Shown here: positions 1,591 to 56,460 of the stretch, one piece after another | Numbering within the stretch: the stretch's first letter is position 1 | Layout: each line of letters begins with the position of its first letter | Assembly (NCBI GenBank): GCA_963556145.1 | Contig: OY744465.1 | Coordinates: 1,736,001-1,800,000, forward strand | Reading direction: 5' to 3' | Source of the DNA: Hygrocybe punicea | Lineage: Eukaryota > Basidiomycota > Agaricomycetes > Agaricales > Hygrophoraceae | DNA: 64,000 nt | The notes under the pieces: model-generated | Databases searched by the model: none | What the model saw: the letters and a program-made list of their open reading frames with translations, nothing else | What the model was told of the DNA's origin: nothing | Translations under genes and position numbers: made by a program

Positions 1591-2847
1591 TAGTGTTGCC
1601 GAAGTTCAGTTCGGTCCGGTTCCGAGCCTTTTTGGCGGAACCGCGAACTGAACTTCGGGTCCGGTTTGGCGCATGGCCAAACCTGGACCCGGACGGCATT
1701 GAACCGTCTCGCCGCGTTCGGTCTGGGTTCAGACCGAGGTTGGCTCACCCCATGAGCTCCGTTCTCCTCGCGAATGGCAGGCACGTATCAATTGATACGG
1801 CGCTACACTTCGCGAGGTAGTTGGGCTGCGGGGGAGCCGTCCGGTGCTGCTGCTGCTGCTGCTGCCGTCGCGTTGCTGCTGTTGCTGCGGCCGTTGGCGT
1901 TGTTGCTGCTGCTGCTGCTGCTGCTGCCATTGCTGCCGTTGCTGCTGTTGCTGCTGTTGCTGCTGCTGCCATTGCCGTGGCATTGCTGCTGTTGCCGCCA
2001 TTGCCGCTGTTGCCGCCGTTGCTGCTGCTGCCGTCACTGCTGCCATCGTTGCTGCCGTCATTGCTGCCGCTGCCGGCGCTGCTCCTGCTGCCGTTGCTGC
2101 TGCTGCTGCTGCTGGCCGTCGTGGTTGTCGTTGCCGTTGTTGTTGCCGCCGCTGGTGGTAGTGGTGGTGGTGGTGGTGGTGGTGTTGCAGCTGTCGCGCA
2201 TCCGTTGCTGCCGGCGCTGCTGCTTCTGTTGCTGCTGCCGTTGCTGCCAGTGCTGCTGCTTCTATTGCTGCTGCTGCTGCTTCTGCTGTTGCTGCTGCTG
2301 CTGGCCGTTGCCATCGTCGTTGCCTGGTTGCCATAGCCGTTCCCATTTCTGTTGCCGCCGCTGGTGGTGGTGGTGGTGGTGTGGCAGCTGTCGCACGTCC
2401 ATTGGCATTGGGTTGGCGTTGGCATCCATCTTGTGCCAAGATGGGTGTGGCCGCGACGTGGTCGCGGTCGAGTTCCCTGTCGCAAATGACATTAGTAAAG
2501 TTAAGAAAAGCTTGAAACTGACCTTCGCGTTGAGTGTTGATGTTGTGTTGCATGTTGATGTTGTGTTGCGTGAAAGCTACACGGTCACGGCCGGTCACAT
2601 GATACCATTTAACACGAAATAGTAAGTCAAGAAATACGAAAAACAAATGAAATAAATACCGTAAAAATAGCTGCGTTCGCGGTTTGGACGCGGTTTGGAG
2701 CCGTTCAGGAAATCCGGCGGGCCTTGAAACCCGGAACTGAACCCGCGGTCCGGTTCAGCACTTGGCTGAACTTAGACTGAACCTCGGGTTCGGTTCGGGG
2801 TTTGAACCGGGTTTGGCTAGGTTCGGAACCGAACTACGGCAACACTA
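1591..2847. mobile_element. Non-autonomous hAT-like element A, target duplication CTTGTGCT
   Basis: A 1257-bp element with termini TAGTGTTGCCGAAGTTC and, inverted, TAGTGTTGCCGTAGTTC. It is flanked by a perfect 8-bp duplication CTTGTGCT (1583-1590 and 2848-2855), as in the hAT superfamily. Both subterminal zones are dense in GGTTCGG/CCGAACC motifs, plausible transposase-binding repeats. The core (about 1845-2330) is CTG/CCG-type triplet repeat, which opens long low-complexity frames on both strands. No transposase is encoded. It is inserted in the Ty3 integrase and carries the symmetric module at 1766-1817. Confidence 0.9.
1766..1817. repeat. 52-bp symmetric module, copy 1 (element A)
   Basis: A two-fold symmetric block. 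Outer arm CCTCGCGAA (1766-1774) is the exact reverse complement of TTCGCGAGG (1809-1817). Both are equally far from the central perfect palindrome CGTATCAATTGATACG (1784-1799). It begins 175 bp from the left end of element A and is followed by the CTG repeat core. Confidence 0.85.
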
Positions 2848-2855
2848 CTTGTGCT

Positions 2856-3122
2856 GGTCCCACCTGCTACTTTCCATAGCTTACCATCTTCTATCATGTA
2901 CTGGGTTGCTCTGTGTTTTGCCCATTTTCTTTCTTTCAGGCTCGCTCCCATGTCCAATTCCACTAACACTTCAACAACCTCTTGGAATATTGGTTTGTTC
3001 TTGAATTGGTTTTGAAGATCTGTTATTTCAGTAGCTGGTGTTGCATTGAATATATTGTGCACTAGACCTTCCGCCACCTCCCAGTCCTCACTCACACACC
3101 AGCTACTGCCATCGCTGTGCAA
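2856..3122 (-). pseudogene. Ty3 linker and integrase N-terminal remnant
   Basis: The segment between RNase H and integrase, with DLQNQFKNKPIFQEVVEVL followed by RATQYMIEDGKLWKVAGGT, typical of the region before the integrase zinc domain. The frame is interrupted by the hAT-like element at 1591-2847. Removing the element and one copy of its target duplication restores the frame into the integrase at 1582. Confidence 0.65.
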
Positions 3123-3461
3123 TCTTGGCTGGTTCTCCCATTTTCTACTCAGCCCATCTGCAACTACATTGATTCGTCCCGGAACATGACGTATGTCTGT
3201 GATGCAGTGAGCTAGTACTCCATCTCACCAGCATGCATTGTAGTGGTTGTGCCTGACAGATCACGTGACCAGTCCCTTAGTCAGTAGCCCTTCTGGATGT
3301 AGTAGTCAGTTCATCCTATCCCATCGAGTCATCCCATCCAGACCTTTCCCTTCGAGTCCTGCGTGAGCCCCTGAGAGGTCCCTCAGGACCTCTCCTGCAT
3401 GTGTAGCACTTAGCTTGTCATTCATGAGAATATCTCGCAGTGCATGGCAGTCTGTTTCCAA

Positions 3462-3812
3462 TTAAATGGGGAATCCCCATGTTATGTCGGCAAATTTGTC
3501 TAGCGCGAATTTCAGTGCCGCGAACTCCAGTAGAAATGGCTTGTACTTCTCCTCGCTAGGTGATGTCCTTTTTGACACAAACCCCAATGGGTGTAATTTC
3601 TTGACTACCTTGCCACTTGGCAGCATTGTCTTGTTTCGCTGTGCTAGTATCCCTGCAAAGCCATCCTTGGAACTGTTGGTAGTGATGATGAAGGGTGTTC
3701 TGTCCCATTTCGGGCCCCATAAGACTGGCTCTGAAGTTAGTGCGATTTTGAGTGCAAGGAATGCCTTAGTGTGTTCCTCTTGCCATCTTCCCTTGAGCTT
3801 GTGTGCTGCCAT
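3462..3812 (-). pseudogene. Ty3 RNase H remnant
   Basis: The RNase H domain following RT. It reads EHTKAFLALKIALTSEPVL, then a degraded TTNSSKDGFAGILAQ in which the expected DASxxGxG acidic residue is Asn/Ser, then EEKYKPFLLEFAALKFALDKF, the usual E-containing helix. The first catalytic Asp looks lost. A short gap with stops (3813-3920) separates it from RT. Confidence 0.75.
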
Positions 3813-3920
3813 TACTCTTCGGTAGACTGTTTTTGTGTGCTTCTCAGGTAGTTCGACCTCTCAAAGTAGGTCGCATAGCAGTTGTTCCATTTTAGCATAT
3901 CCTTGGATGAGGTCTCTGAA

Positions 3921-4418
3921 CTATCCTGTAATTCTGATGAACGCTGCCAGGTTTCTTGCATCTTTAGGTTGTTCCCAGTCTACAATTGCAGTGAGCTTTG
4001 CGAGATCCGGTTGGACGCCGTTCGGGCCTACTGTTGCGCCTGCAAAGACCGTCTTGGTCATGAAGAACTTCAATTTCTTTGCCGATAGTGACAGGTTCCT
4101 CTCGCGGATGCGCTGGAATATTCTAGTCAGCTTCGCTATCATCTCCTCAAACTCATCTGCCACTGTGCCTCCGTCATCAACCAGTAGTTCCATTATGTCT
4201 TCTGCTAGCAGATTGACCAGGTTTGATGCGGTAACATGCGCAAATGTTGACAGTGCACCTGTTAGTCCAAATGGCATCTTTGCATAGCCCAAGTACCCTC
4301 AGCCTTCGACGTAGAATGCTGTATATGGTATGGATTCTTCAGCTATTCGGACAGTGTAAAATCCAGATGCAAAATTGAACATGGATATCCATCGGTGTCC
4401 ACTCAATCTTTGTTGTTT
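3921..4418 (-). pseudogene. Ty3 reverse transcriptase remnant
   Basis: The RT palm. MFNFASGFYTVRIAEES leads to YTAFYVEG, then KMPFGLTGALSTFAHVT, then the catalytic loop ELLVDDGG. AGATVGPNGVQPDLAKLTAIV follows, as in basidiomycete Ty3 elements. An in-frame TGA interrupts between YVEG and GYL near 4296, where related elements have arginine; CGA to TGA is the simplest cause. The N-terminal part of RT is missing at the junction with the element at 4427. Confidence 0.8.
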
Positions 4419-4468
4419 CATCCATATAGGGTATAGCACGGGTTCGGGTAAACCCGTGGTTTTCAGGC

Positions 4469-5768
4469 TAGTGTTGGGGAAGTTCGGTCTCAGACCGACC
4501 CAAACCCGGTTTAGACCGAACCGAAACCGCCGGTTTCGGTTTCGGTTTGGGAAATTTCGGCTGAGACCGAACCGTTCAGTCTCCGGTTTGGAGATTTGGC
4601 CGCGGGCCGAAACGGTTTCAAACTCAGTTTGAACCGCAAACCGACAGTCCAAAGTCGGCTACATGGCTGACTTCGAAAGTCACCCAAAGTCACCAACCCC
4701 ACCAACAACACCCCCGATATACGCCAAACGAAGACGATGGAGCACCCGAGGTCGACAAAACGGGCGGCGGGGTACTCCCTGCCGCCCGCGTATGTTTTTT
4801 ATTTTTATTTATTCGAACTTAACTAATGCATTTACAAATTACAGGTTGATGCACCACGGCCACCACCACCACCACCACCACCACCACCACGACAACGGCA
4901 ACGACAACGGCGACGGTTACAACCACCGTCAACGCCACGCCGGACACGCCCACAGCAACGCCCACAGCCCACCCCCAGCGCCACGCCAAACGCGTTCAAA
5001 ACGCGCGCCAAACGTACGTGAATGGGGTGGAGTCAACAAGGTGGAAGAGCAGCAGGGGTGGTGCATCCACCCCACTCCTTCGTGGTATGTACCTTTATTC
5101 ATTTTTTCACTGATTTATTCATCCATTATAGAATGCGGCACCGTACCACCACCACCACGCAACACTAACACCACCGAGGAAGGCCAACGCGGGGTCAACC
5201 CGGCCGTCGTCGTGTGTACAACGCGTATGACGCGTCCGGACACCCTCGCGAAGAGGCTCCTATGCCACCACCACCACGCGTCCGCCGAAAACAACCAAAG
5301 CGGCCCAGCCGTCGTCGCGTGCACAACGCGTATGACGCATGGGGCACCACCACCACCACCACCACCACCACCACCACCATCACGCGTCCACCGAAAACGG
5401 CCAATGCGGTCAACCCACATCGCATGTACAACGCGTGTGACGCGTCGGGACACCCATGGAGAAGCCCGCGTGCGGCTCAATGCCGGCACAGGGTGTGCCA
5501 GCACCCCAGCACCCCAATCTCACCTCGCAAACAGGCTGGCCACGTCAATTGACGTGCGCAGCACTGTTGCGAGGTCAGAATGGTGCAGGGGCACTGAGCA
5601 CTAGCGGTCCGCGGTTCAGACTGCGTTTGGACCGAAACCGAACCGATGCAAACCGTTTGCATCGGTTTCGGTCTGGTTTGGGGACTTTGGGTGGAAAACC
5701 GGACCATTCGGTTTCCGGTTTGGGCAAAAAGGCCCCAAACCGGACCAAACCGAACTTCCCCAACACTA
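4469..5768. mobile_element. Non-autonomous hAT-like element B nested in C, target duplication TTTCAGGC
   Basis: A 1300-bp element with termini TAGTGTTGGGGAAGTTCGG at both ends (inverted), flanked by a perfect 8-bp duplication TTTCAGGC (4461-4468 and 5769-5776). Subterminal zones are packed with ACCGAAACCG-type motifs. The interior has two CAC trinucleotide tracts (about 4860-4890 and 5342-5380) and repeats of ACAACGCGTATGACGC. No transposase is present. It sits 42 bp inside element C, so it is younger than C, which is younger than the Ty3 copy. Confidence 0.9.
5523..5574. repeat. 52-bp symmetric module, copy 2 (element B)
   Basis: CCTCGCAAA (5523-5531) mirrors GTTGCGAGG (5566-5574) around the perfect palindrome CACGTCAATTGACGTG (5541-5556). 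Length and spacing are the same as copy 1. It ends 194 bp from the right end of element B. Confidence 0.8.
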
Positions 5769-6117
5769 TTTCAGGCTGCGGGTTGATCGGGTACGGGTAC
5801 GGTGTCCCAATTTGTTAACCCGTGTACTACTGCACACCCTTACCCGCGGTAGACGGGTATCCATGGGTTAGCACAGAGGGCCGCAAGCCCCAAAGGTATG
5901 TTTTTTTTTTACTTTTAATTCATTCATTTAACATATCTAATAATTCAGTTATACCCAAACCGCCGCCACCACCATCACCACACCAACCAACAACAGCAAC
6001 AACAACATGGTGACAAAGGGAAACGGCTGGGAGAGTGGTGCGCCCACTTACCAGCACAGGTACATGCCCGAATCATTCACCACCGACATCGGCTAACCCC
6101 CTGCCTTCCAGTCCACA

Positions 6118-6170
6118 CCTCGCAAATGACGTTGACGCATCAGTCGATGCGTCAACGCATGTTCGCAAGG
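6118..6170. repeat. Symmetric module, copy 3 (element C, internal)
   Basis: CCTCGCAAA at 6118 and TTCGCAAGG ending at 6170 flank a longer palindrome, GTTGACGCATC / GATGCGTCAAC. Its centre is CAGTCG instead of CAATTG. It is one base off perfect symmetry and lies 589 bp from the right end of element C, so it is a second copy in that element. Confidence 0.65.
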
Positions 6171-6521
6171 TCTCCAGCACGGAGACACACACGAAGACCT
6201 TGCGACAGCACGGCGACGGTGATGAGGGTGACGTGGACAGGGTGATGTGGACAGGGCAATGCAGACAGGGCAACGCAGACAGGGCAACACGGACAGGGCA
6301 ATGTGGACGTGGACGACGAGGGCCCGGATGATGATGAGGGCCAGAACGATGATGGCCAGGACAACGACGGCCACGACAATGACAGCCACGACGATGCCAG
6401 CCAATTGGCCAATGGTGACGATGTTGGCAATGACGCGACGTGGGACAAGAATGGGCCAGGGGGTGGAGGGCCATGGGGCTGTCAAAAACAATGTTGGCAG
6501 GACCATGGCCCCCTCAAATGA

Positions 6522-6575
6522 CCTTGCGAACCGCATCAGCCGCATGTCAATTGACATGGCAAGGCATTCACGAGG
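6522..6575. repeat. Symmetric module, copy 4 (element C, end-proximal)
   Basis: CCTTGCGAA (6522) and TTCACGAGG (6567-6575) flank the perfect palindrome CATGTCAATTGACATG (6543-6558). The left spacer is about 4 bp longer than in copy 1. It ends 184 bp from the right end of element C. Confidence 0.7.
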
Positions 6576-6767
6576 TCAACAATGACCAGGACGGAGTGGG
6601 ACGAGCCCCCACCCGCTACCCGCACAGTGACGCGGGTAACCACTATACCCATGTCCGATGGCGGGTGATGCAGACCCGGACCTGTGACGGGTGCGGTGTC
6701 TGCGGGTACGGGTACGGTGTTCGGCCTGGGGACCCACGGGTCACCCGTGCTACACCCTACATCCATA

Positions 6768-7132
6768 TGTCGCCCTGTAGCATTGGTGCGACTCACGTCA
6801 CTTTCTTGACTTTGCCAAAGTTCTGGCAGATGAAGCTTTCTGTACATACGACTGCATATTGCCGGTATTAAGGCGCCGTCATCGAATAGACTTTTTATCT
6901 TTGCCTCCTCCCCTTGTGTGCCCTTTAGAACAATGTTGTGTTCGAATGGTACACTGGGCTGTTGTCCTCCTTCCTCGCTCGTTGAGTACATGTCAACTAT
7001 TTCACATTCATGTATCGACATTTGTACATTGTTGACAGTATTGAGGGCATCGGGGAGGTCTGGGCTCTTGTCCCCTCGCAGTGACTCATTGTGTGGGGGG
7101 ATGCTTGTGACTAGACTGCGTTTATGGGCCAT
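6768..7132 (-). pseudogene. Ty3 retropepsin remnant
   Basis: A minus-strand protease segment. The active-site loop reads SLFDDGALI, where basidiomycete Ty3 proteases carry DDGA, followed by a typical stretch ending near NATGRHMD. The frame runs straight into the hAT-like element at 4427-6759, whose target duplication CATCCATA lies here. On the far side the sequence resumes in the middle of RT, so the linker and N-terminal RT portion were apparently lost before or with the insertion. Confidence 0.6.
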
Positions 7133-7290
7133 CTGTTCGTCCTTCAGACAGATGGCCCTTCCTCTTTTCCCTGGTTCTCCTGTTCCTGCTCATGTTCCTC
7201 CCAGTCGTTTGTAGTGTCTTCCATCGTTACTAGCTGGATAGGTACTGTTAAGTCGCGATTGAAGTGGCCAAGAATTGATCCACAAATGGC

Positions 7291-8375
7291 TCACCACGCT
7301 CCCTCCCATAGTGGTAGGCCTTGATTGCATGGGAGCGGGCATTTGGGGCCTCTGTGTCCATGCATGCCACACCTATAACATTCCCCTGAGCATATCATCA
7401 CTGTCCCAGGAGTAAGTGGCACTGGGGTATTAGCATGGACCCTCGCATCTTCGCCGTGTTTTGTGATCCATTGTTGTACTTGTGTGCAGTATGTGACTAG
7501 GCCTTGTGGTGTGTTGGGATGGTGTACTAGGTTATTAATACATTTGCGTAACGCGTCTTTGTCGGCCTGTGTTGGAGGTGCTCTGGTGTTTGTCGTGATC
7601 ACTCGTTGGGGCTGATATCCCCACTTGATGTTCCCTTTTCCTCCTCCATTGGATGTAAATGGGTCTCCACTGTTCAGCTTTGTAGGTGACATTCTGGCAA
7701 ACCGTGTGGGATTGGTGTTGGTGGGTGTCACGAGTGACGTCCTCGATAGTTGCATTCGTACGCCGGCCATGGGGGAAGCTTCGAGCTGTTGTAGGTGACT
7801 GGTGAGTTCCTGTTTTTCCTCCACTGCTTTTTTCAGCTTCTCTGCTCTGTCTTTGATGTGCTCTAGGTCAATCTCCCTGATTGCTTTGGTGAACTCCTCC
7901 CAGTTCGCATGCATCGAGGAGACCTTCTGTTTGATGAGGTCGGGCAGTTGTTTTCGTACTTGGCTTATGTACGTTGTCGTTCGTTCGATGTTGGCTCTGA
8001 TGGCTAGGCGCAGTTGATGTGTGTCCATGCACTGAGTCCTCCTACATCTACTTTCTTCCCTAGGTCTTCTTCTTTCAGTTGTAGTTTGAGTAGTTCATCT
8101 TCGTATTCGATTTGTGTTTTCCTCACTTGTTTTACTTTCGGCCATTTTTTCGCGAATGCTTCTTTCAGTTTAGGCCATGTGGCCTTGTCTGCTGGGTCGA
8201 GATTGTCAAGCCAGTCGTCTGCGGGACTGGACAAATGTAGATAGTTCTCAAATGCTTCCAATTTAGCCTTATCGTCATCTCCATGCGTATCTCTGAGGAA
8301 CGCTCGCATGAAGTCCTGCACATTCTCTCCTTCATGGCTGTCACCCCAGAATGGCTCTACAGTCAATGGTGCCAT
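7291..8375 (-). pseudogene. Ty3 Gag remnant with CCHC zinc knuckle
   Basis: The structural protein of the Ty3 element. The first frame (8375-8004) starts MAPLTVEPFWGD and contains the tryptophan-rich, helical part typical of Ty3 Gag. The reading continues in another frame (8028-7291) with a charged coiled-coil-like stretch. It ends in a CCHC knuckle, CYRCGMHGHRGPKC, near its C terminus, which in this family binds genomic RNA. One frameshift near 8030 joins the halves. It lies upstream of the protease in element order. Confidence 0.8.
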
Positions 8376-8691
8376 TCTTCTAAGTTTGACTATGGGTGCA
8401 TTTGTCGAGGTGTTTTGGATGTGGGTTGGGGGTGTTACTGATTGGTTTCAACGTGGCGGTGAAGTAGGGGGTGTTTGTTGCTTTAGGCGACTTTTGAATC
8501 CAAAGGATTTGGGTGAATGGGATCTGGATGGGGTGCTCGAAGGTGTTATCAATGATTCTGAGGATGGTGGTAACAATTCGGCACTGGTGGTGTAAGGGAT
8601 GAAACGGCCGTTCAACTTTGATCTTATTTTGGGTGCCAGGGTGGGCTCATGGACTATTGTTACTGTGCTAGTGATTATTCGGTGGGTACTC

Positions 8692-19364: not shown

Positions 19365-20640
19365 TTAGCGGGGAGGTGGCATTGCATAGCGCAGGAAGGG
19401 TTCTAGGACTGGTGTTCCCTGCATGTAAGGGGCCATGACTACTGCGTGTTGGCGTAGGTATGTCAGGAACGCACCACTGGTCCAGCGACCAATGGTTTTT
19501 ACTACTTCGAAGGGAACACCTCGTAGCAGGAGTTCAAGTGTGGCTCCAATGCGTATCCCATGTCCCTGGAAGGGAGGTATTTTGAGTGCTTTGCTGATAT
19601 CCTTCAAGCGTGATATGAAAGCTAATCGGGTGAGAGGTCGGAGTCCTTGTGGGTGGCGCCATGCAAATAAAGGATCGGCCGGGGATGGGTTGTTGATGCT
19701 GAAGTGGGTATTGATGGTGGCCTCTGGATCGGATGGGCCTGGTTGTTTTGACCAGTATATATCCTCGCCTTCTCGGGAAGTCTTGGTGACTGGGATGTGG
19801 AAGACTGATACTTGGAGATTGTTGCGATCTTTCCGCCAAGTCATATCAGAGCGTTTGACGTGTAGGTCAGGATTGAAGGCTTTTAAAGTGGGAACAGTAA
19901 GTTCTCCCAGGCGAGCTATGGAGTAAAAGGTGGTTGTGAGACAAGCATAGAAAGCGGCATCGAACGGGAGCGTTAGGTCCAGTTCATTCTTGGCCATTGC
20001 TAGAAATTGGGTAGTGATGGGTTCCCTCTTGGCACGAATGGATGTGGGGGGAGTGAGGGAAGTGGGACCATCGAGGGCCGCTTTTATCTCTGGGTGATTG
20101 GCACACCATGGCTGGCCATGGAGAATGTGCCATGCACGGACGGCGAAGACATAGTTGGCCAGAGTCTTTCCGGAGTAGACTCCGGCATTGTTAGCAATGA
20201 AGGCGAGGACTAGGACCAGGCTGGCTGGACATCGTTGAGGTTCCGGAATGCTGCGGAGATCGCAGAACCGGTGAAATGCGAGAAGTCCCGCACCGTATCC
20301 AGCCCGAGTGCCTTGAGCCCAGGATACGCCGATGACCTCTAGAATTCGGTCTAGGTCAGCATCAGTGATGGGGAGAGTGTGTCCATTAGTGTCGTGTGCT
20401 GTACGTGTCCGAGCTGGGACCCATAGCCGAAGACGGTCGCGGGCAAGGCAGTGAGGACGAAGCGGTGAGGTGAGAGGGGCCAACCCAAGTCGATATGGTT
20501 GTGGCCTGGAAGGAATTGGGTCCGGGGGTGGACCGAAGGGTGGATCAACCGGACCATTGGCTTTGGAGGGCTCGCAGCTCAGTTTCAAAGTTAGTGGGCT
20601 GTTTCTGTGGGGGACCAGGATTCCTGAGAGAATCCGCAAT
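19365..20640 (-). CDS. DIRS tyrosine recombinase
   Basis: The C-terminal part of a long minus-strand frame; the recombinase domain starts near 20640 and ends at 19365. It shows DADLDRILEVIGVSWAQGTR (core-binding region), the first catalytic Arg in SIARLGELTVP, the HxxR box in GHGIRIGATLELLL, and the nucleophile Tyr in GRWTSGAFLTYLRQHAV. The family integrates and excises DIRS circles without a DDE integrase. The frame upstream of about 20640 overlaps the RT ORF and is a shadow. Its start overlaps the end of RT/RNase H, suggesting coupled translation or splicing. Confidence 0.9.
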
Positions 20641-22794
20641 GAGCTTTGCGGTTGGTTTGGGGTATCGGCCCTCTCGGAGCAGGTTGAGCTCAATGTCTGA
20701 ATATGGTAGGGTCGCATCAATGATGAAGCGGTCGAGACCGGCTGGTATCTCAAAGGGGGGTAAGAGGAGGTGGTAGGGAGGATAGATGCCCCGGGAGGGG
20801 CCATCGGCTGGGTTGAATTTGCTGGGGATGTAGGTTGCATGGATCGAGAGAATGGAATCACAAGACTCGATGAAGTTGTGGATGCGTTTAAAGACATCGT
20901 TGATGGCTGCGTTCCTGCTGCGGCCGTTTGGCCAGCCTTCGACGACTCCCATGTTGTCCCCAAATAATTCAAAGTGGTGGCCAGTTGTTGCAGACCGGGC
21001 GACTGATCGAATGAGGAGTTCAAATCCCAGGGCCTCCGCCCAGCCGATGTCACGTTTACCATTAAGGGTCTGCCATCCTGGAATGAGGCGCCAAGCACGC
21101 CAGCGGCCAGCGATGACGATTCCGATGCCAATGCCCGAACTGGCATCTGAGAAGGCGTGGAGGTCTGTGAGGTGGACAGGGCTTGGGATTGTCCGGCCAA
21201 GGAATGGTTGGGCCAGTTTGGCGCACCACCATTGCAGGTCTTCACGGATTGTCCGGTCAGCGTGGCGTGGCATGAGAGGACGGTCACCGTAGATGCCCAG
21301 CATGTTCTCCAGGCCAGTGAGGTAGGCACGGCCTGGAGGGACCACCAGGGATGCATGAAGGAGCTTTCCGTAGATTTGTTGTACGTCGCCAAGGGTGTGG
21401 GTAGGCGAGTGCTCCCATTCGTGGGTTGAGGCGAGGTATTTGGTCTTCTTCTTTGGTGGAAGGGAGACCGTGAGTGTTTCCAGGTTCCAATCCAGGCCGA
21501 TGAATGTCGTCGTTGAAGCAAAGGGCAGGTCCTTGGATTTTTCCCAGGGGATACCAAGCTGATCGGACAGGCGATCAATGTCGTCGAAGTTGTAGGCAAA
21601 GAGTTGGTCCCCGGAGGGGCGGGGTGAGCAGGATGATAGATCGAGGCAGGGGGAAGAGCAGTCTTCGTCAAATTCTTCAAGGGTGCCATCGGGAAAAACT
21701 CTCCCGCCAAACCAGAGGCGCCCACCATCGTGATGTCGGCCACGGGGGGTAATGTCGGCATGCCAGTCTCTGCGACGCATGTTGTATTCCTGGAGGTGCT
21801 CTCGAAGGATCCGGAAGAAAATGTGGTCGTCGACCCATTTGGAGAGAGGCGCCATCCCATGGCAACGGAATAGCTCGGTGCCTGCGTCACTGACGGAGCC
21901 ATACACTCCAGCAGATGGTGCCACCCCAAAGCAGGTGGCAGTGTCGATGCAAAATTCGTCGGCAGCGAGTCGGACAACGGCACCTGGCCATTGGGAGGGG
22001 TGCAGGGGGATGGTCCGGTATGCCTCTGCCACATCTCTTGTGGCTGCCTGAGAGCCGGGGGGCAGGCGTGAGATGAGTAAGGACACAATTGAGAAAGTCC
22101 CCCAGGTGCTGGGGAAGCGGTCCGAGTCGATCTGGGAGTTGATAGAGGGGCTTGGGAATTTTGCTGAGGTCTTATGAGGGAACGAATAGTTTTGTACGTT
22201 GCGGAAGTGATTCGGTCGGCCTGGTTTGGGTATGATGCCAAAGGGGGCCGTCTGGAAGGGGCCGATGAGTATCTCAAGAGTTGACTGTGAGAAGGGGCCC
22301 AGGTATCGGCCTTTGGACAGCTCTTTGGATACAATTTTTTGGAATTCGGAACTATGTTCAATGATGGAGTCTTTGTTTGGCGGCGCTTGGGTGCGTGAAA
22401 TGGTGGGTATCTCAAGATTGAAACCATATTGCATACTTCGAGGGAGGTGATCATAGCGAGGCCAGATGTTGGTTGAATGGAGTAGTGCTTCCCAAGCATC
22501 TGGTTTATAGGGAGTGAGGGCTTGATGCTTTCTGCGCTCGAGGACAGCCTTGTGCGCCATGAGTGGTATGACCACATCTGGAGCAGATGTGACGATTGTC
22601 GTGGTGGGTGCTGGTGCAGCCGGCAACGTGTTGGAAGTCGACGCAGATGGGGCGGCCATCGCGGAGCAAGAGGGACTTGTTGATGCGCTGTGCAAGCGCA
22701 AGGTGGAGTCCATCCCAGGTATGTGTTGCAGCGCATTCCACAATTCTGTGTGGGTGGCGACCGAGGCATACGGCGCAGGCAGAGTAGCCCCCAC
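20545..22794 (-). CDS. DIRS reverse transcriptase / RNase H
   Basis: A continuous 749-residue frame. RT landmarks: FGIIPKPGRPNHFRNVQNYSFPH, RDVAEAYRTIPLHPSQWPG, FGVAPSAGVYGSVSD, and the active-site loop KWVDDHIFF. RNase H landmarks: HAFSDASSGIGIGIVIAGRW, GWAEALGFELLI, ELFGDNMGVVEGW and IPSKFNPADGPSRG. It copies the element RNA into DNA. It overlaps the gag-like ORF (ending 22505) and the recombinase. No stops or frameshifts. Confidence 0.9.
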   Translation of the reverse strand: MGATLPAPYASVATHTELWNALQHIPGMDSTLRLHSASTSPSCSAMAAPSASTSNTLPAAPAPTTTIVTSAPDVVIPLMAHKAVLERRKHQALTPYKPDAWEALLHSTNIWPRYDHLPRSMQYGFNLEIPTISRTQAPPNKDSIIEHSSEFQKIVSKELSKGRYLGPFSQSTLEILIGPFQTAPFGIIPKPGRPNHFRNVQNYSFPHKTSAKFPSPSINSQIDSDRFPSTWGTFSIVSLLISRLPPGSQAATRDVAEAYRTIPLHPSQWPGAVVRLAADEFCIDTATCFGVAPSAGVYGSVSDAGTELFRCHGMAPLSKWVDDHIFFRILREHLQEYNMRRRDWHADITPRGRHHDGGRLWFGGRVFPDGTLEEFDEDCSSPCLDLSSCSPRPSGDQLFAYNFDDIDRLSDQLGIPWEKSKDLPFASTTTFIGLDWNLETLTVSLPPKKKTKYLASTHEWEHSPTHTLGDVQQIYGKLLHASLVVPPGRAYLTGLENMLGIYGDRPLMPRHADRTIREDLQWWCAKLAQPFLGRTIPSPVHLTDLHAFSDASSGIGIGIVIAGRWRAWRLIPGWQTLNGKRDIGWAEALGFELLIRSVARSATTGHHFELFGDNMGVVEGWPNGRSRNAAINDVFKRIHNFIESCDSILSIHATYIPSKFNPADGPSRGIYPPYHLLLPPFEIPAGLDRFIIDATLPYSDIELNLLREGRYPKPTAKLIADSLRNPGPPQKQPTNFETELRALQSQWSG

Positions 22795-24246
22795 TGCCTG
22801 CGCCTGCCCAAAAATCCGACTTCTTTTCTGGACATCCTCGGCTGTCGCGAAGCTGGGGTGGAGACCCAGATCTTCTGCGAGTGTCAGTTAACCGCTTGTG
22901 CTCTCGGCTCCGTCTGGAGGGGGAGACGTTGTAAGGGGTGCTGTGGGCGGAACTAATGTCCTGGTCAGCCTGAGCGCATGGGTGCATAGGGCGCAGGAGC
23001 AGAGGAGCATGCATAGAGCAAGGGTGTGGCATGCGTGGAGCAAGGGTGTGGCATGCATGGAGCAAGGGTGTGGCATGCATGGAGCAAATAAGGGGCATGC
23101 ATAGAGCAAGAGGGGGCGTGCGTGGAGCAGAGGAGGCATGCGCGATGTAAAGAGGAGGGTGAAGGTTATTGTTTTTTGGTAGGTAACGGTAGAGGGAAAT
23201 GTGGGGGGGGCGACAGTCAGCAAGTGATCCGTCATTAGAGGGAGGGAGGGAGGACTCACGCGGAAGTCCTTGATGTTGTCCTTGTGCTTCCGATCTTCCC
23301 AGTATACCTCTTCTTTGGTTTTGCGCAAGACGGATTCATCTATTATAGAGATGTTGTAGGCGCCGCGGGGCGAGGGGATGGCGAGGTGCCATAGCCGTCG
23401 TTGTCTGGCCTGGTATAAGAGCAGGGCTTTCTGGTTGAGGGGGTCGTGGGAGGACCGCATCTCGTGGATCTGAAGCTTGCCCCAGAAGGAGGCGAGCATG
23501 GCCACGCGATCAGCTGGCCAGTCGGCCTCTTCCATGGCGAGGATCATCCGGGGGACGGCTTGACAGAAATCTTCCCATTTGACGTCCCTGTCATCAAGGG
23601 CCTTGTTGGAGTCTCTGGCAGCAGCAGCCGGTACCCAGGATGTCGAGCCATCAGGCTTCTGGGCCATCACCATGGCGTCATCGTTGACTGTGGCATGTGC
23701 CTGCATTGCCTCATCTAGGCCCTCATTAGTGTAGTACCAGAGTTCGACGTATTGCCCTCTATCCATCTTCTTGGTGGCGTAGTTGGACGCGAAGACGGGG
23801 GTGATGGAGGGCATCGGCCGATTCGGGATGGGGATGTACTTGGCCTTGTTCTTCTTCATCTCTTCCTTTCGCACATCCTCTCGCTCTTGGGCGGCTAGGA
23901 GAGCGTGTTGTTCTGCGGCCGCTTGCATCTGTAAAAACCGTTCTGCTTGTTCTGTGGCGTCGTTGTGTATCTGATCCTGCCATAATTGCTTCTCTAGGTT
24001 GTTACCAGCTGTCCAGACGTTGGTGAGCAGTTGTACTGCTTGCGCCTCTGTTGTTGTGGCATTGACAAAGGGTGCTCGAGTTTGGGCATAAAAGGCAGAT
24101 GCGTAGTCAGGGCACTGGAGTTGCGCAGGGTCAAAGAGGAGTCGAGGCATCAAAGGAGTTGGTGTGTGATTTCGGAGTGAAATGAAAGAGATAATTTGCT
24201 CTATTGAGCAGGGAAGATCTTTTGAAGTGGCAAGTGGTGGTGGCAT
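22505..24246 (-). CDS. DIRS gag-like protein with C-terminal zinc fingers
   Basis: The first exon runs from MPPPLATSKDLPC (24246; an alternative ATG is at 24150) through a helical, glutamine-rich region (ERFLQMQAAAEQHALLAAQEREDVRKEE) to a GT donor at about 23259. The second exon, entered near 22970, ends at 22505 with CAVCLGRHPHRIVEC and later HICSRCGHTTHGAQGCP, the cysteine clusters typical of basidiomycete DIRS Gag. Between them are diverged 20-30 bp repeats of GCATGCATGGAGCAAG (23010-23140). The intron limits are my inference. Confidence 0.7.
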
Positions 24247-36152: not shown

Positions 36153-38906
36153 TAGTGTACGTGGCAGAACTATTTTCAGTCAATTGTGCCGGCAGAACTG
36201 GCAGAACAGCAATTGCCAACAGTGGCAGAATCTGGCGGAACGTTTCCGAGTTCAAATATCAGCTTTACAGTTGACAAGTCGCGGTAGGGACCAGTCCATT
36301 GAGTATTACAAAAAAGAAACACCCTCAGAAGACATGATGTGACGGACATCCCACAAATTCGAAGCTGCGTCTTCATCTCCGATGACACTCACAACCTCTT
36401 TGAACGACTCAGGAATAAGGCCTTGATCTACACGCTCCAACTCCTCAAAACTGTATACCTCACCTTGCAGCACCTCTCCGCCATCCAAACTCTTGTCCAA
36501 TTCCTTTGATTGGCTCTCCAGTTCCCTGAAAGCTTCATCCAGTTCATCAAGGGATATCCCTTCTGGACCCTGGAGAAAATTGTCAGCTCGGAATTTTCGG
36601 AAGTAAGAGGAGGTGTCCATGTGAATGTGGCCTCAAGATCGTTGACCAGGTCAACACTGATGCCAACTTCAGAGCGGGTGTGCATATGGGCATGGCGGCG
36701 ATGTGTAGGCTTCCCGGAAGCGCGATCCTTTTGATAAAGATGATAGCAATAGTTGGCATGGAGTTTTCCAAGGGTTTCGAAAGTTTCAACAGAGAGGCGG
36801 CAACGTTTGACAGTTTGCGTACCACCGAGAGCTGAAAAGAGTTGCTCGACTTTGGCTGCATGTGGAACGATGGAAAACAGGGTGATAGCGAGGATTTTCA
36901 ATGGATTGGCCTCAGCAGTGAGCGGTAAGCATTCCCACCAGTCAAGGCCGTTCGCTTGGCCACCTGCATATGGCCCTCTGCACTGGTGGTACTGCTTCAA
37001 GTTGTCGACCAGCCGCTTTGCCTTCTCCTCACTCCACCTCCACTGCTGTGCAATCCCTAGAGCTGTCTGAACCATAAACTCAAATGAACGGCCATTTGCT
37101 GCCTGTGAAATTGTTAACTTCCGGCACATGGGGTGGAGGAAAAGGGCCAGGGAATGGATGTTCGCGTTCATGGAATGAAAGCATCGATTAAAAACAGCCT
37201 TTGCGTGCATCCAGAAACCCACGTCGTCATCATCAGGATCCAGCTGAATGCGAATCATTGCTTGAGCACACCGGATTAGCTCAAGCATGCAATCGGCAAG
37301 TGATGTCTCCCGTGATTCAAGGTTGCCGATGGCATCAACAATGGGCTTTGCAGTCTTAAGGAGCTGGTTAAGGCGTGACCAGTATTCTACATCATGGAGG
37401 ACTGTATTTATTACTTCGGGTACGACAGGGGACAGTCCGTGGGTTTTCTTCTGTGCATCAGGTCGAATACAGATATGAGAGAGGGTTTCTGACCAACTCG
37501 TCAGACATAGCTCTGTGCATACTGAAGTAGAATATCAAACCGATATGATAACACGCAGAATTAAGGCATACCACCGAGATTTGCGATTCTGCTTCATTGT
37601 GTGGTTTATCTTCATTTTCTTTGCTTCGCTGTTGAGCTGGCCCCCCCAATAGTGAGAATTGTTGAAGAATGTGACGATCCGAGTTGTTTTTGAAATGATC
37701 TTCTTCATCGCCAGAAACGAAAAAATCTCACCAAGTGTGGTGTTGAGCCCATGAAGAAAACAAGCAAAAGTCTGTAAGTTTCCAAATCATAAACAAATTC
37801 AAGTATTTCAAGAATGAGACATACAAGCACCCAATAGAAATGGCCTTGAAATCTCCTGCGAAGCACCTGCATCACCGTGGGGTTATCGGTTGTGAGTGCA
37901 ATGAGACAACGGCCATCTTCAATTTCCATAGTTTTCAATGCCTTTTGGGATGTCCCGAACAGCTTGTCTGCAGAACCCCGATGGCCAGTCAAGTCGTCAA
38001 GGCTAAGTACAACTGGATACCTGTTAACTTCTGCTGCAACAGAGCCATATAAATTTCGTTTGATCTTATCTTCCCAACCATCAATCAGCAATGTGAGCTG
38101 CTTCCTCTCCTTCAGTCGGTTAATTTCTTCAATCTGCACCCTTGCTGCTTCAGCATCCATAATAGAGTGAGACAAGACCCAGCGAGAGGGTGCCTGGTAG
38201 GAAGGGCGGATCTCATCAAGAAAGTCACGGAAATACCAATTCTCTGCAACGGTGAATGCCACATTGGCATGAACGACAAAGCTGATATATTCTGTAAACA
38301 GAAGCGTATATAATCTCACACCACCACTCACCGGAAGAGTTTGACATTGGCACGCTCTTGTTGTGTTAGAGTGAGTGCATGGTCAACATATCCTCCAAGC
38401 GTCCCAGACTTCCGCTTCTTTACAACAACAGAGCCACCGGCTTCAGGCAATATGGGAGAAGAAGGTTCGGATGGGGTGATAGAACCGCCGATCACCTCAT
38501 TTATTCCCTTTCCTGCCAGAAAGGTACGGGCTTCTTTACGTACATCGGAAGGGCAGTTGGGACACTTTTTGGGATCTATAAGATGTTTGACATGTAGATT
38601 GTCATGTCCCTGGATGCGATGACCAGGTCCATTGTCATCACAGTGGTTGCATTTCCACCAGTAACGACCAGATTTATTTGCAACTTTTTCAAGCTGGGTG
38701 AAGTTTGCCACGACAAATGCGAGGAGGCGGGCGCCCGCCTGTGTTATTGGAAGTCATGCTGATTCTTTTACAAACTCAGTGCATAGAGGTAGACAAAACT
38801 ATTATAATAGAACTTCAATCCGCGAGGTTGTACTTCTGCCGAGTTCTGCCCAGCACCGCTTTTGGCAGAATGGTGGCGGAATGGCAGACTTCTGCCAACA
38901 ACACTA
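36153..38906 (-). mobile_element. hAT element encoding a transposase, target duplication AGTCCAAC
   Basis: A 2754-bp element with ends TAGTGTACGTGGCAGAA and, inverted, TAGTGTTGTTGGCAGAA. It is flanked by a perfect 8-bp duplication AGTCCAAC (36145-36152 and 38907-38914). Both ends are crowded with GGCAGAA/TTCTGCC motifs, likely transposase sites. One gene fills the interior. Its terminal eight bases TAGTGTTG at the right end match those of the non-autonomous elements A, B, D and E, but the rest of the ends differ. Confidence 0.93.
36306..38712 (-). pseudogene. hAT transposase with BED-type zinc finger
   Basis: The N terminus carries a BED-like finger, YWWKCNHC ... HVKHLIDPKKC. Exon 1 ends 38332; exon 2 starts 38281 (RFVVHANVAFTVAENWYF). 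Then come MDGWEDK-like LIDGWEDKIKRN, LTTDNPTVMQ and ACFLHGLNTTLGEIF (across an intron), SRWYALIL, and the hAT dimerisation block WWECLPLTAEANPLKILAI ... VEQLFSALGG. One proposed intron near 37530 is only 33 nt. No clean ATG is in frame with the finger (an ATG at about 38757 is one base off). A further frame change near 36600 is needed to reach the stop at 36306. It may therefore be slightly damaged. Confidence 0.75.
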
Positions 38907-48862: not shown

Positions 48863-48869
48863 GCCATCC

Positions 48870-52380: not shown

Positions 52381-52741
52381 TAGTATACGGACAAGATGTG
52401 TGTTGTCTGGATAGATACTCTCCTGGAAGGCAGCGAGAAATATTGAGAGTGGAGAGGTCCAGGGACAATGTGGATTAGATAGAATCAGATTCAACATCTG
52501 GGACAAGTTGTATGATGCATGTACAGTCCTAAATGCACAAATCCATGAGATTACGTTCCATGAAACACAGAGCGACGATATGTTCGAACGAGCCACATGT
52601 CTTCTCTCCATTTGACTTTTGATATCTTGGCATGTTCCAAACATTGAGGGAGGTGGCAGTGTGTCGGTGTCCTTTGGCCTTTTCTTCGTCATGCCTAGTA
52701 ATGATGATAAATTGAATGAGAATTGATCATTCCAAGAATGC

Positions 52742-53534
52742 TGTGACGGTGAGTTCTGTTGTAGACCTGGAATGGGAATCTACGGAAAGGGTGATCGGCT
52801 AGAAAGTGATCAGAGGAATCAGTTTCTTTAGAGAAGTCTAATCAATCCAACCCAAATCCAGGGGTTCTGGAATCAGAGGGAGAGTGTGGGGGAAAGGACG
52901 AAGAGAGGTGTAGACAATATGAAGAGAGGACTAAGAAATATAGCTGAAGTGGGATGATGAGATGTATGTCTATATGCGTGTCTGGGTATCTGTATTTCTA
53001 TATTGTTTTGTAGTGTAAATGTGCTACTTTTATACTACTGTGAGGGATCCTGTGCTATGGTAACTATGTGCTACAAGTGAAGGCTGTAAGTGATAGGGGG
53101 CGAGTGGAGAGGAGGATAGGAGGAATGGTGCTATGTACTAGTAGACGGGAAACGAAGATATATGATATACAACTATATACGTACTGATTCCAGGTTGTTA
53201 GGGACATTGCATTGCGAGTAGGGAGGCAGAATCCGGAGCGGAATTGATAGGAAAGAGCGGAATCGAGCGGAATCAATGATACAGGAATGGGAATGGACGG
53301 GAATGGTGTCAGATATGAAGGGGATATGGATCCACACGAAGTGACAAAGATCCTGGCGTCGTGGGAAGAAAAGAGCGGAAGTGATGTCGAAAATGGGCGG
53401 AAATGGGGGTATAATATGAACGGAGTCGAAGCCAGCGAGTATCGAAGCGTTGGGAAGAGGTGATCCAGAGCTACCAAAATAGGGTGGGGCGAAACGGCTG
53501 GACAAAGAAATAACAGTCACATGATGGGGCAACA
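52742..53534 (-). repeat. Solo LTR, target duplication AATRC
   Basis: A 793-bp LTR on the minus strand from TGTTGCCCCATCATG to CACCGTCACA. It is flanked by AATGC (52737-52741) and AATAC (53535-53539), a 4-of-5 duplication. U3 contains ATTCCGCTC/GATTCCG repeats. A TATA-like box and CT-rich R/U5 follow. A 5'-truncated copy in opposite orientation lies at 59861-60426. No internal domain is left, so it is a solo LTR. Confidence 0.78.
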
Positions 53535-53703
53535 AATACAAACATAAAAATTTTCAACGTGACTCGACGTTGACAACAACCTCAACAGGCTCAACTATAT
53601 CCCAGCAGTCCCAACACCAACAACAAATGTCGACCGAATACAATGACTTCCTTGAAAAACTTGATGCAGATATGTGGAAAGACTTCGAGAATGCCGTAGC
53701 CAA

Positions 53704-54619
53704 TAGTGTTGCCGTAGTTCGGTTCCGAACCTAGCTGAACCCGGTTCAAACCCTGAACCGAACCCTTGGTTCAGTTCTGGGTTTCAAGGGCCGCCAGATT
53801 TCCTGAACGGCTCCAAACCGCGTCCAAACCATGAACATGGATATTTTTAAGGTATTTATTTCATTTGTTTTTCGTATTTCTTTACTTACTATTTCGTGTT
53901 AAATGGTATCATGTGACCAGCCGTGACCATGTAGCTTTCATGCAACACAGCAACATCAACACGGGTTGAACACAACACAATTTGTGTTGTGTTCATCAAG
54001 GTAAGTTTCGATTTTTTCTTAACTTTACTAATGTTATTTGCGACAGGCAACTCGACCGTGACCACATTGGGACCACACCCACCTTGGCACAGGATGAATG
54101 CCAATGCCAACACAATGCCAATGGACGCAGGACAGCCACAACACCACCACCACCACCAGCGGCGGCAATGGCAATGGCAATGGCAATGGCAACAGCAACC
54201 AGGCAATGACAACGGCAACAGCCAGCAGCAGTGGCAGAAGCAGCAGTGGCAGCAGCAGTGGCAACAGCAAAAGCCATCCAACATCACCACCAGTGGCGGC
54301 AACAACAATGGCAACGACAACCACGATGGCCAGCAGCAGCAGCAGCACCGGACGGCTCCCCCACAGCCCAACTACCTCGTGAAGTGTAGCGCCATATCAA
54401 TTGATACGTGCCTTCCATTTATGAGGAGAACGGAGCTCATGGGGTGAGCCCACCTTGGTCCAGGGTTCAGACCACATCTGAACCCAGACCAAACACCAAG
54501 AGATGGTTCAATGCCATCTGGGTCCAGGTTTGGCCATGTGCCAAACCGGACCCAAAGTTCAGTTCACGGTTCTGCCAAAAAGGCTCGGAACCAGACCGAA
54601 CTGAACTTCAGCAACACTA
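53704..54619. mobile_element. Non-autonomous hAT-like element D, target duplication GTAGCC[A/G]A
   Basis: 916 bp, the same family as element A but in the opposite orientation. The left end is TAGTGTTGCCGTAGTTCGG and the right end, inverted, TAGTGTTGCTGAAGTTC. The flanks GTAGCCAA (53696-53703) and GTAGCCGA (54620-54627) match at 7 of 8. The interior has CAG/CAA/CAC triplets and the symmetric module at 54375-54426. Confidence 0.9.
54375..54426. repeat. 52-bp symmetric module, copy 5 (element D)
   Basis: CCTCGTGAA (54375-54383) mirrors TTTATGAGG (54418-54426) around TATCAATTGATA (54395-54406). The length is exactly 52 bp and it ends 193 bp from the right end of element D. It is adjacent to the CAG repeat. 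Confidence 0.8.
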
Positions 54620-55321
54620 GTAGCCGAGTTGCTGGAAGTGGACATGGCCAGAAACAAGATCATACATGATGGACACGAGGACAGGGCACAGCAATGGGTG
54701 GTGAGACGACAACAGCCCATAGTAAGACATCCCGTTCCCGTAAATGGCACGAACTAACAATACCCAACAGCGGAACTACAGGGGACTCATGATGGAAATC
54801 CAGGACAATGGAATTGATGTGACAGAACTGAAGGACTTCTCAATGGGTGGGGAAATGGTGGTTGAGGTCGAGGAATGGTTGCGGAACCAGGAGGAATACA
54901 AGAAGTGGGAGCAGGAAGAGGCGAGGCATCGGGAAGTTGAGGAGGCATTATGGTTGCAGGAGGAAATGGAGGAGGGGGAAGCGAGGAGACAATGGGCTGT
55001 GGAGGCGGCGGAGCTTGAAGCAGAAACAGGCAGAGGATTTGTGCCAGTATGAGGAGGAGATAAATAGGAGGGCAGAGGCGGAGGCGGAAGTGAAGTGGAT
55101 TGAGGAGGTGGAAAGGGCGAAGGCGGCAGAGGCAGCGAAAAGGGAGGCTGAGGGAGCCACGGAAAGGGACCCAGAGGAGACCAGACAAGCCAGCGAGCAC
55201 AGAAACAACAAGGATGAGGACGGCAACTGGGCCGAAGAACAACTATGGAAATACGAGAAGATCCAAATGCTTACATGATCAAAAACAAAAAGGCCAACTG
55301 GGACAATGGAACCATTCACAG

Positions 55322-56460
55322 TAGTGTTGCCGAAGTCCGGTTTGGTGCGGTTTGTGGCCTTTTTGGCTGAACCAAAAACCGGACCCTTGGTTTGGTTTGG
55401 CCCCCTCACTGAACCGGAACTGGAACCGCATGGGACCATTCCATGCGATCCGGTCTGCGTTCCAATGCGGTTTGAACCACGAACCACCTCCCTCCACCTT
55501 CAAATTTCCTTGCAAGCCGCAGCACCACGTCAATTGACGTGGGCCTGGGGTTGCGAGGAGTTGGGGGGGTGGGGAGGAAGGGGGGGACTGTCCACTGCTG
55601 TGGGTGCTGTGTCGCTGCCGGTGCCGTTGTTGCAACTGTTGCCCTTGCCACCGTCACTGCTGCCGCTGCTGTCGACGCTGCTGCTGCCATAGCTGCGCTG
55701 CTGCTGCTGCTGTAGCTGATGCTGCTGTTGCTGCTGCCATAGCTGCTGTTGCCGTAGCTGCTGCCATTGCTGCTGCTGTTGTTGCCGCTGTCATTTTCAT
55801 TGCAGCCATGGCTGCTGCCACTGCTGCTGGGGTTGCCGTGGGGCTGGTGCCATGTCCACACTCGCGGGCGTCATGGAGTTGTGAGGGGCAAGTATAGATA
55901 AATAAGTGACAAATAAAAGATAAGAGGCGACATATCTTAGCAGCAGGGGTGGGCGCACCACTCCCCACTGTTCTCGCTATGGTCCCTAGTTCCCATCGTG
56001 GGCATGGTGTGGGTGTGGGCATGGTGTTGGCGTGGGTGTGGTTTTGGCACAGGCACGGGCAGGGCGTGGGCATGGGTGTGGGCCGTGGGGGGCTTCTTTG
56101 TGTAAGAAAATGTTAGTAAAGTATGAAATAAATTATTTACTTACCGTTATCATTCATTGATGTTGTTGTTGAGTCGAATCCGCGTGGATTTGCGTGTATG
56201 TTTAAGGTCACATGACCCAAGTTCTCACGAGTACATACACAAAAATTAACACAAAAATTGAATATTGCAGTATCTACATACAATAAGTTCAAGGTTTGAA
56301 CCCGGTTCCAAGCCGTTCAGAAATTTCTGAAGGGCCCGGAACCCTGCACCGGACCCGCGGTTCAGTTCAGCCAAAGTGCTGAACTTAGACTGAACTTAGG
56401 GTTCAGTTCGGGGTTTGAACCGGGTTCGGATCGGTTCCGAACTGGACTACGGCAACACTA
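55322..56460. mobile_element. Non-autonomous hAT-like element E, target duplication ATTCACAG
   Basis: 1139 bp, ends TAGTGTTGCCGAAGTCCGG and, inverted, TAGTGTTGCCGTAGTCCAG. Perfect 8-bp flanks ATTCACAG at 55314-55321 and 56461-56468. Subterminal zones are rich in GAACC/GGTTC. A CTG/TGC triplet core lies at 55600-55840, with repeats of GTGGGCATGG at 56000-56080. No transposase. It carries the symmetric module at 55508-55559. Confidence 0.92.
55508..55559. repeat. 52-bp symmetric module, copy 6 (element E)
   Basis: CCTTGCAAG (55508) and GTTGCGAGG (ending 55558) flank the perfect palindrome CCACGTCAATTGACGTGG (55525-55542). It starts 186 bp from the left end of element E. Confidence 0.78.

Follow-up and report, generated by a model that had tools for sequence, protein, structure and literature searches.

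The window, i.e., the whole 64,000-bp stretch of DNA analysed here, contains five TIR/TSD-bounded elements, detected by a scan for an 8-bp TSD plus TIR in which at most one TSD mismatch was allowed. Together they cover 5,645 of the 64,000 bp (8.8%), and each carries at least one copy of a symmetric module of 51-54 bp. The elements, their modules, and two further features of element C are as follows:

1591..2847, minus strand: element A1, non-autonomous hAT; TIR TAGTGTTGCCG, TSD CTTGTGCT
1766..1817, minus strand: A1 module; length 52 bp, distance to the 3′ end 175 bp (in 30 further A loci, 193 bp in 29 and 192 bp in one)
4427..6759, plus strand: element C, non-autonomous hAT, with B inserted; TIR TAGGGTRTAGCA, TSD CATCCATA
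4469..5768, plus strand: element B, nested in C; TIR TAGTGTTGGGGA, TSD TTTCAGGC
5523..5574, plus strand: B module; length 52 bp, distance to the 3′ end 194 bp
6030..6059, plus strand: exon-like end of the shared cargo, GGAGAGTGGTGCGCCCACTTACCAGCACAG, in element C
6060..6111, plus strand: intron predicted from sequence only, GTACAT...CTAAC (6093-6097)...CAG, between this motif and the first module of C
6118..6170, plus strand: first C module; length 53 bp, distance to the 3′ end 589 bp
6522..6575, plus strand: second C module, of D type; length 54 bp, distance to the 3′ end 184 bp
53704..54619, plus strand: element A2, same family as A1; TSD GTAGCCAA/GTAGCCGA
54375..54426, plus strand: A2 module, decayed; distance to the 3′ end 193 bp
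55322..56460, minus strand: element E; TIR TAGTGTTGCCG, TSD ATTCACAG
55508..55558, minus strand: E module; length 51 bp, distance to the 3′ end 186 bp

All five elements possess the 8-bp TSD of hAT transposons, a property demanded by the scan itself to within one mismatch (the TSDs are identical in four elements and differ by 1 nt in the remaining one), and their TIRs are held in common with transposase-bearing relatives of two end types, L055 and L057. The elements measure 916-1300 bp (C without B, ~1.03 kb), Pfam gave no match for five ORFs lying in or across them, and they are non-autonomous. A Pfam search of six window ORFs gave a single weak match under the cut-off. The first-pass annotation had described five different hAT-like elements, each with one module at a fixed distance from one terminus. 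Five non-autonomous hAT elements with TSDs are indeed present, but they represent only four families, since A1 and A2 belong to the same one (for A1, 40 further matches to its relative A2 were found, at 84-91% identity), and C carries two modules.

The six modules themselves are present where they had been placed, the last being better taken as 51 nt, and the distances given for them (175, 194, 184, 193, and 186 bp) agree with the ends defined by TSD and TIR. The near-fixed distance to one end is likewise borne out: one module usually lies 184-197 bp from the 3′ end, with exceptions at 175, 176, 236, and 277 bp. In K elements the last module is at 197 bp in seven of seven (a first detection cut lost this module in most of them, and a later scan recovers it), in families other than A and K the distance is, apart from these exceptions, 184-196 bp, and the last copy of the F family is at 236 bp. 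Elements hold one to several modules, some of them far from the end; better preserved copies of the D-type module occur in loci L017 and L072.

Four arm pairs with no more than three mismatches in all and a spacer of 30-38 bp exist in the window, all within elements, and three of the four have an exact TCAATTGA core; the other two modules with exact TCAATTGA show four and five arm mismatches. Exact TCAATTGA is found in none of 35 looser arm pairs outside elements in the window, and the location of all six modules inside elements would have a chance probability of 4.7e-7 if they were independent. Simple symmetry amounts to 20, 20, 16, 10, 17, and 17 of 26 pairs, and the maximum across 20 Markov shuffles is 18, so symmetry alone exceeds chance for two copies only; a non-module place at 56324, inside E, scores 19. 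The rest of the evidence against chance is carried by the common arms and core. Rfam gave no match above the gathering score in the window.

A genome-wide pattern search, suggested with the first-pass annotation, showed the module to be abundant: two paired-arm patterns yielded 67+75 = 142 and 772+767 = 1,539 strand-matches, in which palindromic places are counted on both strands, vs 0+0 for the reversed control patterns. Modules vary between families, and arrays are frequent. Among the matches listed, all 54 places of the long class measure 53 or 54 bp within an allowed range of 53-80 bp, and a long class of 51-54 bp recurs among family representatives with little else in common. Shorter classes are mostly 31-35 and 41-42 bp, and these short forms (31-42 bp) are without TCAATTGA. 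The 41-bp form resembles the 53-bp form minus 12 bp between direct repeats, and the length classes therefore need not mean helical phasing. Both the missing TCAATTGA and length classes that may not reflect phasing speak against reading the module as a protein-binding DNA site. For 62 of 101 modules in loci, both element ends were identified with a TSD of at most two mismatches; the remaining 39 involve a locus edge, an absent end, or another end type, and the module is also present in an element with other ends and a 6-bp TSD. In L046, L048, and L054 the arms seem to have matched by chance. An IMG/VR scan with the 51-55-bp module pattern returned five stretches, none with TCAATTGA and all regarded as chance, and literature searches gave, among the matches listed, no account of the module.

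The symmetry of the module is limited to its 9-bp arms and a core of ~16 bp with the layout NNNN-TC-NNNN-GA-NNNN; the spacers show no significant symmetry. Arms are conserved over 19 family representatives, part of which is fixed by the search pattern. The TC/GA pairs hold in 98-99% of 104 distinct modules (142 entries minus 38 duplicates or entries with a poor core), a figure inflated because those same bases were used to locate the core and any entry mismatching them more than once was dropped. The centre tetranucleotide of these 104 is AATT in 75, GATT in 12, and one of eight others in the rest. As had been proposed, core-adjacent half-sites co-vary between families: a half-site matches its own partner at 3.37 of 4 positions vs 2.32, a value reached in none of 10,000 permutations. 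One set of 17 families used in the analysis was chosen by eye. The covariation is clear for the 4 nt beside the core, weak for nt 5-8, and absent beyond. Such co-changing half-sites are predicted by base pairing or by copying between halves and not by independent recognition of half-sites, a point against the DNA-site view. Selection on the symmetry of the whole 52 bp is not upheld; more than 6 nt from the core, and with one recombinant perfect palindrome removed, the signal is not significant (1,023 of 10,000), and at 22 F-family places a module's own halves match no better than shuffled ones (1,758 of 10,000). The perfect palindrome, of 54 bp, forms the centre of a whole-element inverted repeat and can be read as a fusion of one module's left half with another's right half, so symmetry can also arise by recombination. 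Template switching was dropped as the origin of this palindrome because its flanks show the whole-element repeat.

Outside the module, a second constant is the exon-like motif, whose 21-base version has 131+112 genome matches vs 0+0 for the control. In C, K050, L061, L065, L070, and F045 alike, the motif is followed by a predicted donor at 12 nt and a branch-point-like sequence at 45-46 nt. From the latter to the start of the first module is 11-25 nt in K050, L061, L065, C, and L070, 31 nt in L003, and 38 nt in F045. This order of motif, predicted donor, branch point, and first module holds with both hAT end lineages. The claim that one symmetric module is shared by elements with unrelated termini is sustained; motif, module, and order are common across them, and the module is part of a shared cargo and not of the transposition ends.

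Loci with hAT transposase were found by PF05699, and five of 152 reported domain matches were fetched. L055-like ends occur in A, B, E, F045, and L061, and L057-like ends in C and K050, the latter weak at its 5′ end; end-similarity scores are 41-140 (25 for the K050 5′ end), whereas 20 shuffles of the same pairs never exceeded 23. Neither the exon-like motif nor the module is present in the five fetched loci, two of which have matching ends (no element ends were found in L056); TCAATTGA occurs in none of the five, and one coreless arm pair in L054 is regarded as chance. Among the matches listed, the smallest distance to a hAT domain is 6.6 kb for the 65 short-class places and 3.0 kb for the 54 long-class ones (C1:2677193, outside the fetched set; the next is at 9.2 kb). 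The first-pass suggestion of a site for a transposase accessory subunit is not supported as a general need of the transposase or of such a subunit, given these module-free loci, the variable copy number, and the copies far from the end.

We tentatively favour, at somewhat less than even confidence, the view that the module acts in cis, as an inverted-repeat DNA site in the shared cargo that a sequence-specific dimer recognizes. The cargo unit would probably be transcribed and spliced, as its sequence predicts, and its carriers would be non-autonomous elements with ends of two or more hAT lineages and of one or more other element types. Arms and core would be bound in register by a sequence-specific protein, as a dimer or a dimer of dimers, and this protein might govern cargo expression, 3′ end, or chromatin state rather than the cutting step. 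The near-fixed 3′ distance would then mirror a terminal block of ~190 bp that is required by the transposase and adjoins the cargo, and cargo may be exchanged between transposon lineages.

An unlikely alternative is an RNA hairpin formed by the module within the cargo transcript, which would influence splicing, stability, or processing. The six copies have folding z-scores of -2.1 to -7.5, the centre tetranucleotide is loop-like in its variability, half-sites covary (which copying between halves also leads one to expect), and the short interval from branch-point-like sequence to first module in five elements suits such a role. On this view, the first copy is downstream of the branch point and others are close to the RNA 3′ end. 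However, deep folds are in part expected of any DNA palindrome, the arms keep sequence rather than compensatory change, and the spacers are not dependably paired. G·U-compatible mismatches are not in excess on the sense strand: G·T:A·C counts are 11:12 and 25:36 in the arms and 45:40 in the four core-flanking pairs, where the strand was deduced from repeat content as well as family similarity. This absence of strand bias leaves a sense-RNA hairpin unsupported.

It is also rather improbable that the module has no present function and hitch-hikes with cargo multiplied by transposition, its symmetry being kept by recombination or template switching between quasi-palindromic halves. The joined halves of the 54-bp palindrome, in an element that is now a full inverted repeat, fit this idea, and homogenisation of arms by template switching is documented in the sections of PMC8604942 and PMC8794818 drawn on here. 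Arms and core nevertheless persist, and the long class keeps to 51-54 bp, in otherwise dissimilar representatives, and the F-family halves are not homogenised. Binding of a transposase or accessory protein, as by BED domains at the subterminal quasi-palindrome of Hermes (PMC10368747, in part), is very doubtful: it would account for one copy at 184-197 bp in most families seen, but a Hermes-like site belongs in the transposase-bearing element, where the module was found in none of five loci, and the distance of the nearest hAT domains, the unrelated ends, the several copies per element, and the F-family position all count against it. A coding motif for a peptide such as LAN....SID, towards which the predicted intron of C (linking, as read by eye, the upstream frame to HLANDVDASVD) and several third-codon-position variants of the upstream motif (also in L068) point, is rejected as highly improbable, as the arm-to-core length varies by 1-3 nt and breaks the frame, no relative was found for the spliced 90-aa reading of C, and the five ORFs are without Pfam match.

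Beyond the favoured DNA-site reading, a bolder and somewhat unlikely proposal is that the cargo (motif, intron, and modules) has moved among at least three end types as a second-order parasite, the real replicating lineage, with ends as exchangeable vehicles and the module serving the cargo itself as a signal for expression or maintenance. The end types meant are the two hAT lineages and the inverted-repeat element with a 6-bp TSD. The usual way to classify non-autonomous elements is by their ends, whereas here the middle is conserved in hundreds of copies with differing ends. If true, this would permit a direct test of whether non-coding or short-coding cargo is a selfish lineage swapping vehicles, and would point to a new sequence-specific factor in mushroom-forming fungi.

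Among known systems, the TnpA sites of the class II element En/Spm are repeated short sites in both orientations and in this respect resemble the module; they occur in the autonomous element, which encodes the accessory protein, and En/Spm belongs to a different superfamily from the hAT hosts. Like the module, the BED-bound subterminal repeats of Hermes and Tol2 are quasi-palindromic and sit at a defined distance from a hAT end, but they lie, in the part of PMC10368747 considered, tens of bp from the terminus of the transposase's own element, whereas the module is ~190 bp or more from the end and does not occur in either of the end-matched transposase loci. A likeness in cargo is offered by the TET/JBP dioxygenase genes found in 11 fungal DNA transposon lineages, which are likewise fungal cargo in transposons of different superfamilies, passed between them (PMC12730594). 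Those carriers are classified by their own transposases, whereas the module carriers seen here lack one; and the TET/JBP cargo is a known enzyme whose compared borders have, in the sections of PMC12730594 drawn on here, no palindrome or signature, whereas the constants here are an exon-like motif and a symmetric module.

All six sequences that the first-pass annotation had claimed for the symmetric ~52-bp module (9-bp arms around a ~16-bp core with TC/GA pairs) were found in the window. All six lie inside five non-autonomous hAT elements, delimited by a scan for 8-bp target duplications and inverted termini:

1591-2847, element A1
4427-6759, element C, with two modules
4469-5768, element B, nested within C
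53704-54619, element A2
55322-56460, element E

These had been described as five different elements; five are indeed bounded, but A1 and A2 represent one family. The module-to-3′-end distances of 175, 194, 184, 193, and 186 bp agree with the earlier figures. Much of the interior of the elements is taken up by long trinucleotide (CAG/CTG-type) tracts (1834-2310, 54120-54350, and 55620-55830), and several A elements differ in length by multiples of 3. By eye, A1 and C are inserted in an apparent gypsy-like retroelement (window 1-8400), producing, with B inside C, a three-level nest; two ORFs of this interval had no Pfam matches. Other features of the window include:

7291-8028, minus strand, zinc-knuckle ORF of the apparent gypsy-like retroelement (by eye; further fragments elsewhere)
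19365-22835, minus strand, long overlapping ORFs resembling a DIRS/Ngaro-like element with reverse transcriptase and tyrosine recombinase (one ORF with a weak Pfam match, below cut-off)
36428-38331, minus strand, ORFs that by eye look like fragments of a hAT transposase (without Pfam matches)

Across the genome (92.2 Mb, 42 contigs), paired-arm searches returned 772+767 matches with a 35-62 bp spacer (long class) and 67+75 with a 6-33 bp spacer (short class), each against 0+0 for the reversed pattern, while a shorter pattern gave 26+22 against 2+2 for its control; places are fewer than these sums because palindromic places count on both strands. The 34-bp spacer of family A falls outside both paired-arm patterns, and a 279-bp A2 query yielded at least 41 matches including A2 itself, 40 of 786 first-look candidates being scored. 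Among the matches listed, the long class occupies 54 places (100 rows) in the first 4.4 Mb of contig C1, measuring 53 bp in 31, 54 bp in 23, and more in none, and the short class measures mostly 31-35 and 41-42 bp, with a few at 45-51. By eye, taking 12 bp between direct repeats out of the 53-bp form gives the 41-bp form (C1:1423202 versus locus L050). Module arrays also occur, often spaced near 100 bp (L001, L035, L043), and at L070 (1238-1436) tandem CTTCGCGAGGTCTTCGTTCAT-like units mimic module arms.

The module lies 193 bp from the 3′ end in 29 of 30 family A loci and 192 bp in the other, its presence there being guaranteed by the search since the A2 query contained it. In A-type elements neighbouring other modules the distance is 192 (L049), 193 (L051 and, twice, L052), or 277 bp (L037), and an A-type element in L043 retains a decayed module (11 changes) at 189 bp. 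Corresponding values are 196 bp in family G (L034, L049), 197 bp in all seven family K copies, 196 bp in L065, and 176 bp in L061. In family F, the last module, a short form, stands at 236 bp in L001, L035, L045, and L053; its counterpart in L038 has decayed, with 9 changes.

Beyond the module, the families share an exon-like motif, GGAGGGTGGTGCRCCCACCTACCGGCCCAG followed by GTACGT or similar, whose 21-base version gave 131+112 genomic matches against 0+0 for the control. A donor lies 12 nt, and a branch-point-like sequence 45-46 nt, past the motif core in C, L061, L065, L070, and the K and F elements K050 and F045 (14 and 41 nt in L003), with the first module starting at 57-83 nt; the exception is the second motif of L061, which is without a branch point and has its first module at 180 nt. 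This arrangement occurs in carriers with both types of ends, resembling those of the transposase-domain loci L055 and L057, and the motif is also present in L062 and L067, with ends TATGACGTTCCACGTGCAC; none was seen in family A. Splicing at this donor and branch point is predicted from the sequence, and third-position changes hint that the motif may be coding; by eye, the upstream reading frame of L064 is offset by one base from that of L067. Another motif, TCATGTGAC, lies ~240-260 bp from the 5′ end and precedes a GTAAGT/GTGAGT intron-like stretch in L045, L001, L053, E (55322-56460), and A2 (by eye); common to families A, E, and F, the combination looks like a promoter and first exon. Tentatively, we regard the module as a sequence-specific DNA site within the shared cargo.

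Symmetry, emphasized in the first-pass annotation, exceeds chance in two of the six copies (20/26 pairs; maximum 18 in 20 shuffles), but the others reach 16, 10, 17, and 17. The site at 56324, subterminal in E and not itself a module, scores 19/26. The distinguishing feature of the six is their common arms and core. Compensatory half-site change was assessed in representatives of 19 families, obtained from 65 sequences by clustering at 78%. On either side of the core, the adjacent four bases agree with those opposite them in their own module at 3.37/4 positions, versus 2.32 with sides swapped between families (0/10,000 permutations), and positions 5-8 at 1.68 versus 1.13 (50/10,000; 189/10,000 without the perfect palindrome). 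An earlier test with 17 families selected by hand pointed the same way (0/5,000 on three measures). The claim stands beside the core but not beyond 6 bases (102/10,000 with the perfect palindrome, 1,023/10,000 without) or among 22 F-family places (own versus swapped halves, 1,758/10,000). Across 104 distinct modules, TC/GA pairs are kept in 98-99%, a value inflated because the core was located by those pairs; the four pairs that follow are kept in 64-85%, after which conservation falls to 33% and 15% at pairs 9-10 and is 63-66% at pairs 11-12. In L067, the element as a whole (791-1614) forms an inverted repeat with a perfect 54-bp module at its centre; its 412-bp arms share 93.5% identity, and it has a 6-bp duplication, CATTCT, seen in this one copy. 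It apparently arose when half of one module of an L062-like element was joined to half of another.

Coordinated half-site change keeps two other readings alive. Nothing else speaks as strongly for base pairing or copying between the two halves. Base pairing would fit an RNA hairpin, which we nevertheless consider rather unlikely: sense-strand G.U-compatible mismatches show no RNA-favouring excess over the reverse kind (11:12, 25:36, 45:40), and the modules fold deeply as RNA, but so would any DNA palindrome. Copying between halves would also fit a module that hitch-hikes without present function, a reading we hold to be unlikely.

Five hAT dimerisation-domain loci were fetched from at least 152 matches (573 candidates). 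L055 (3267 bp, TIR TAGTGTTGCCGA) has ends resembling A, B, E, F045, and L061, the 3′ similarity to E and L061 beginning inside the end; its transposase reading has 29 relatives, of which the six with a named source come from Favolaschia, Coniferiporia, Mycena, and Hohenbuehelia (33-48% identity), in keeping with an agaricomycete host. The ends of L057 (3369 bp, TIR TAGGGTATAACA) resemble C and K050, weakly at the K050 5′ end (score 25 versus 22 in shuffles), and those of L058 show no similarity to the module carriers compared beyond ~11-15 bp. A further hAT family is represented by L054 and L058 (frame of 722/618 aa, subterminal TAGTCGACTAGT repeats). Neither TCAATTGA nor the exon-like motif was found in any of the five; single arms (≤1 mismatch) occur in four, and one arm pair in L054. 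The nearest listed hAT domain is 6.6 kb from the 65 listed short-class places; among the 54 listed long-class places, C1:2677193 lies 3.0 kb from one and the next nearest 9.2 kb, and by analogy with L057 the element near C1:2677193 is expected to stop short of the module. The absence of the module from all five loci, including two with ends like those of carriers, speaks against the proposed role in transposition; we judge that role improbable, and the data favour a DNA site in shared cargo. That the module is itself a coding motif seems very improbable.

No account of the module was found in the open-licence literature searched. Two known systems offer parallels: TET/JBP genes are documented as cargo moved between transposon superfamilies in fungi (PMC12730594), and quasi-palindromic subterminal sites are known in Hermes (PMC10368747).
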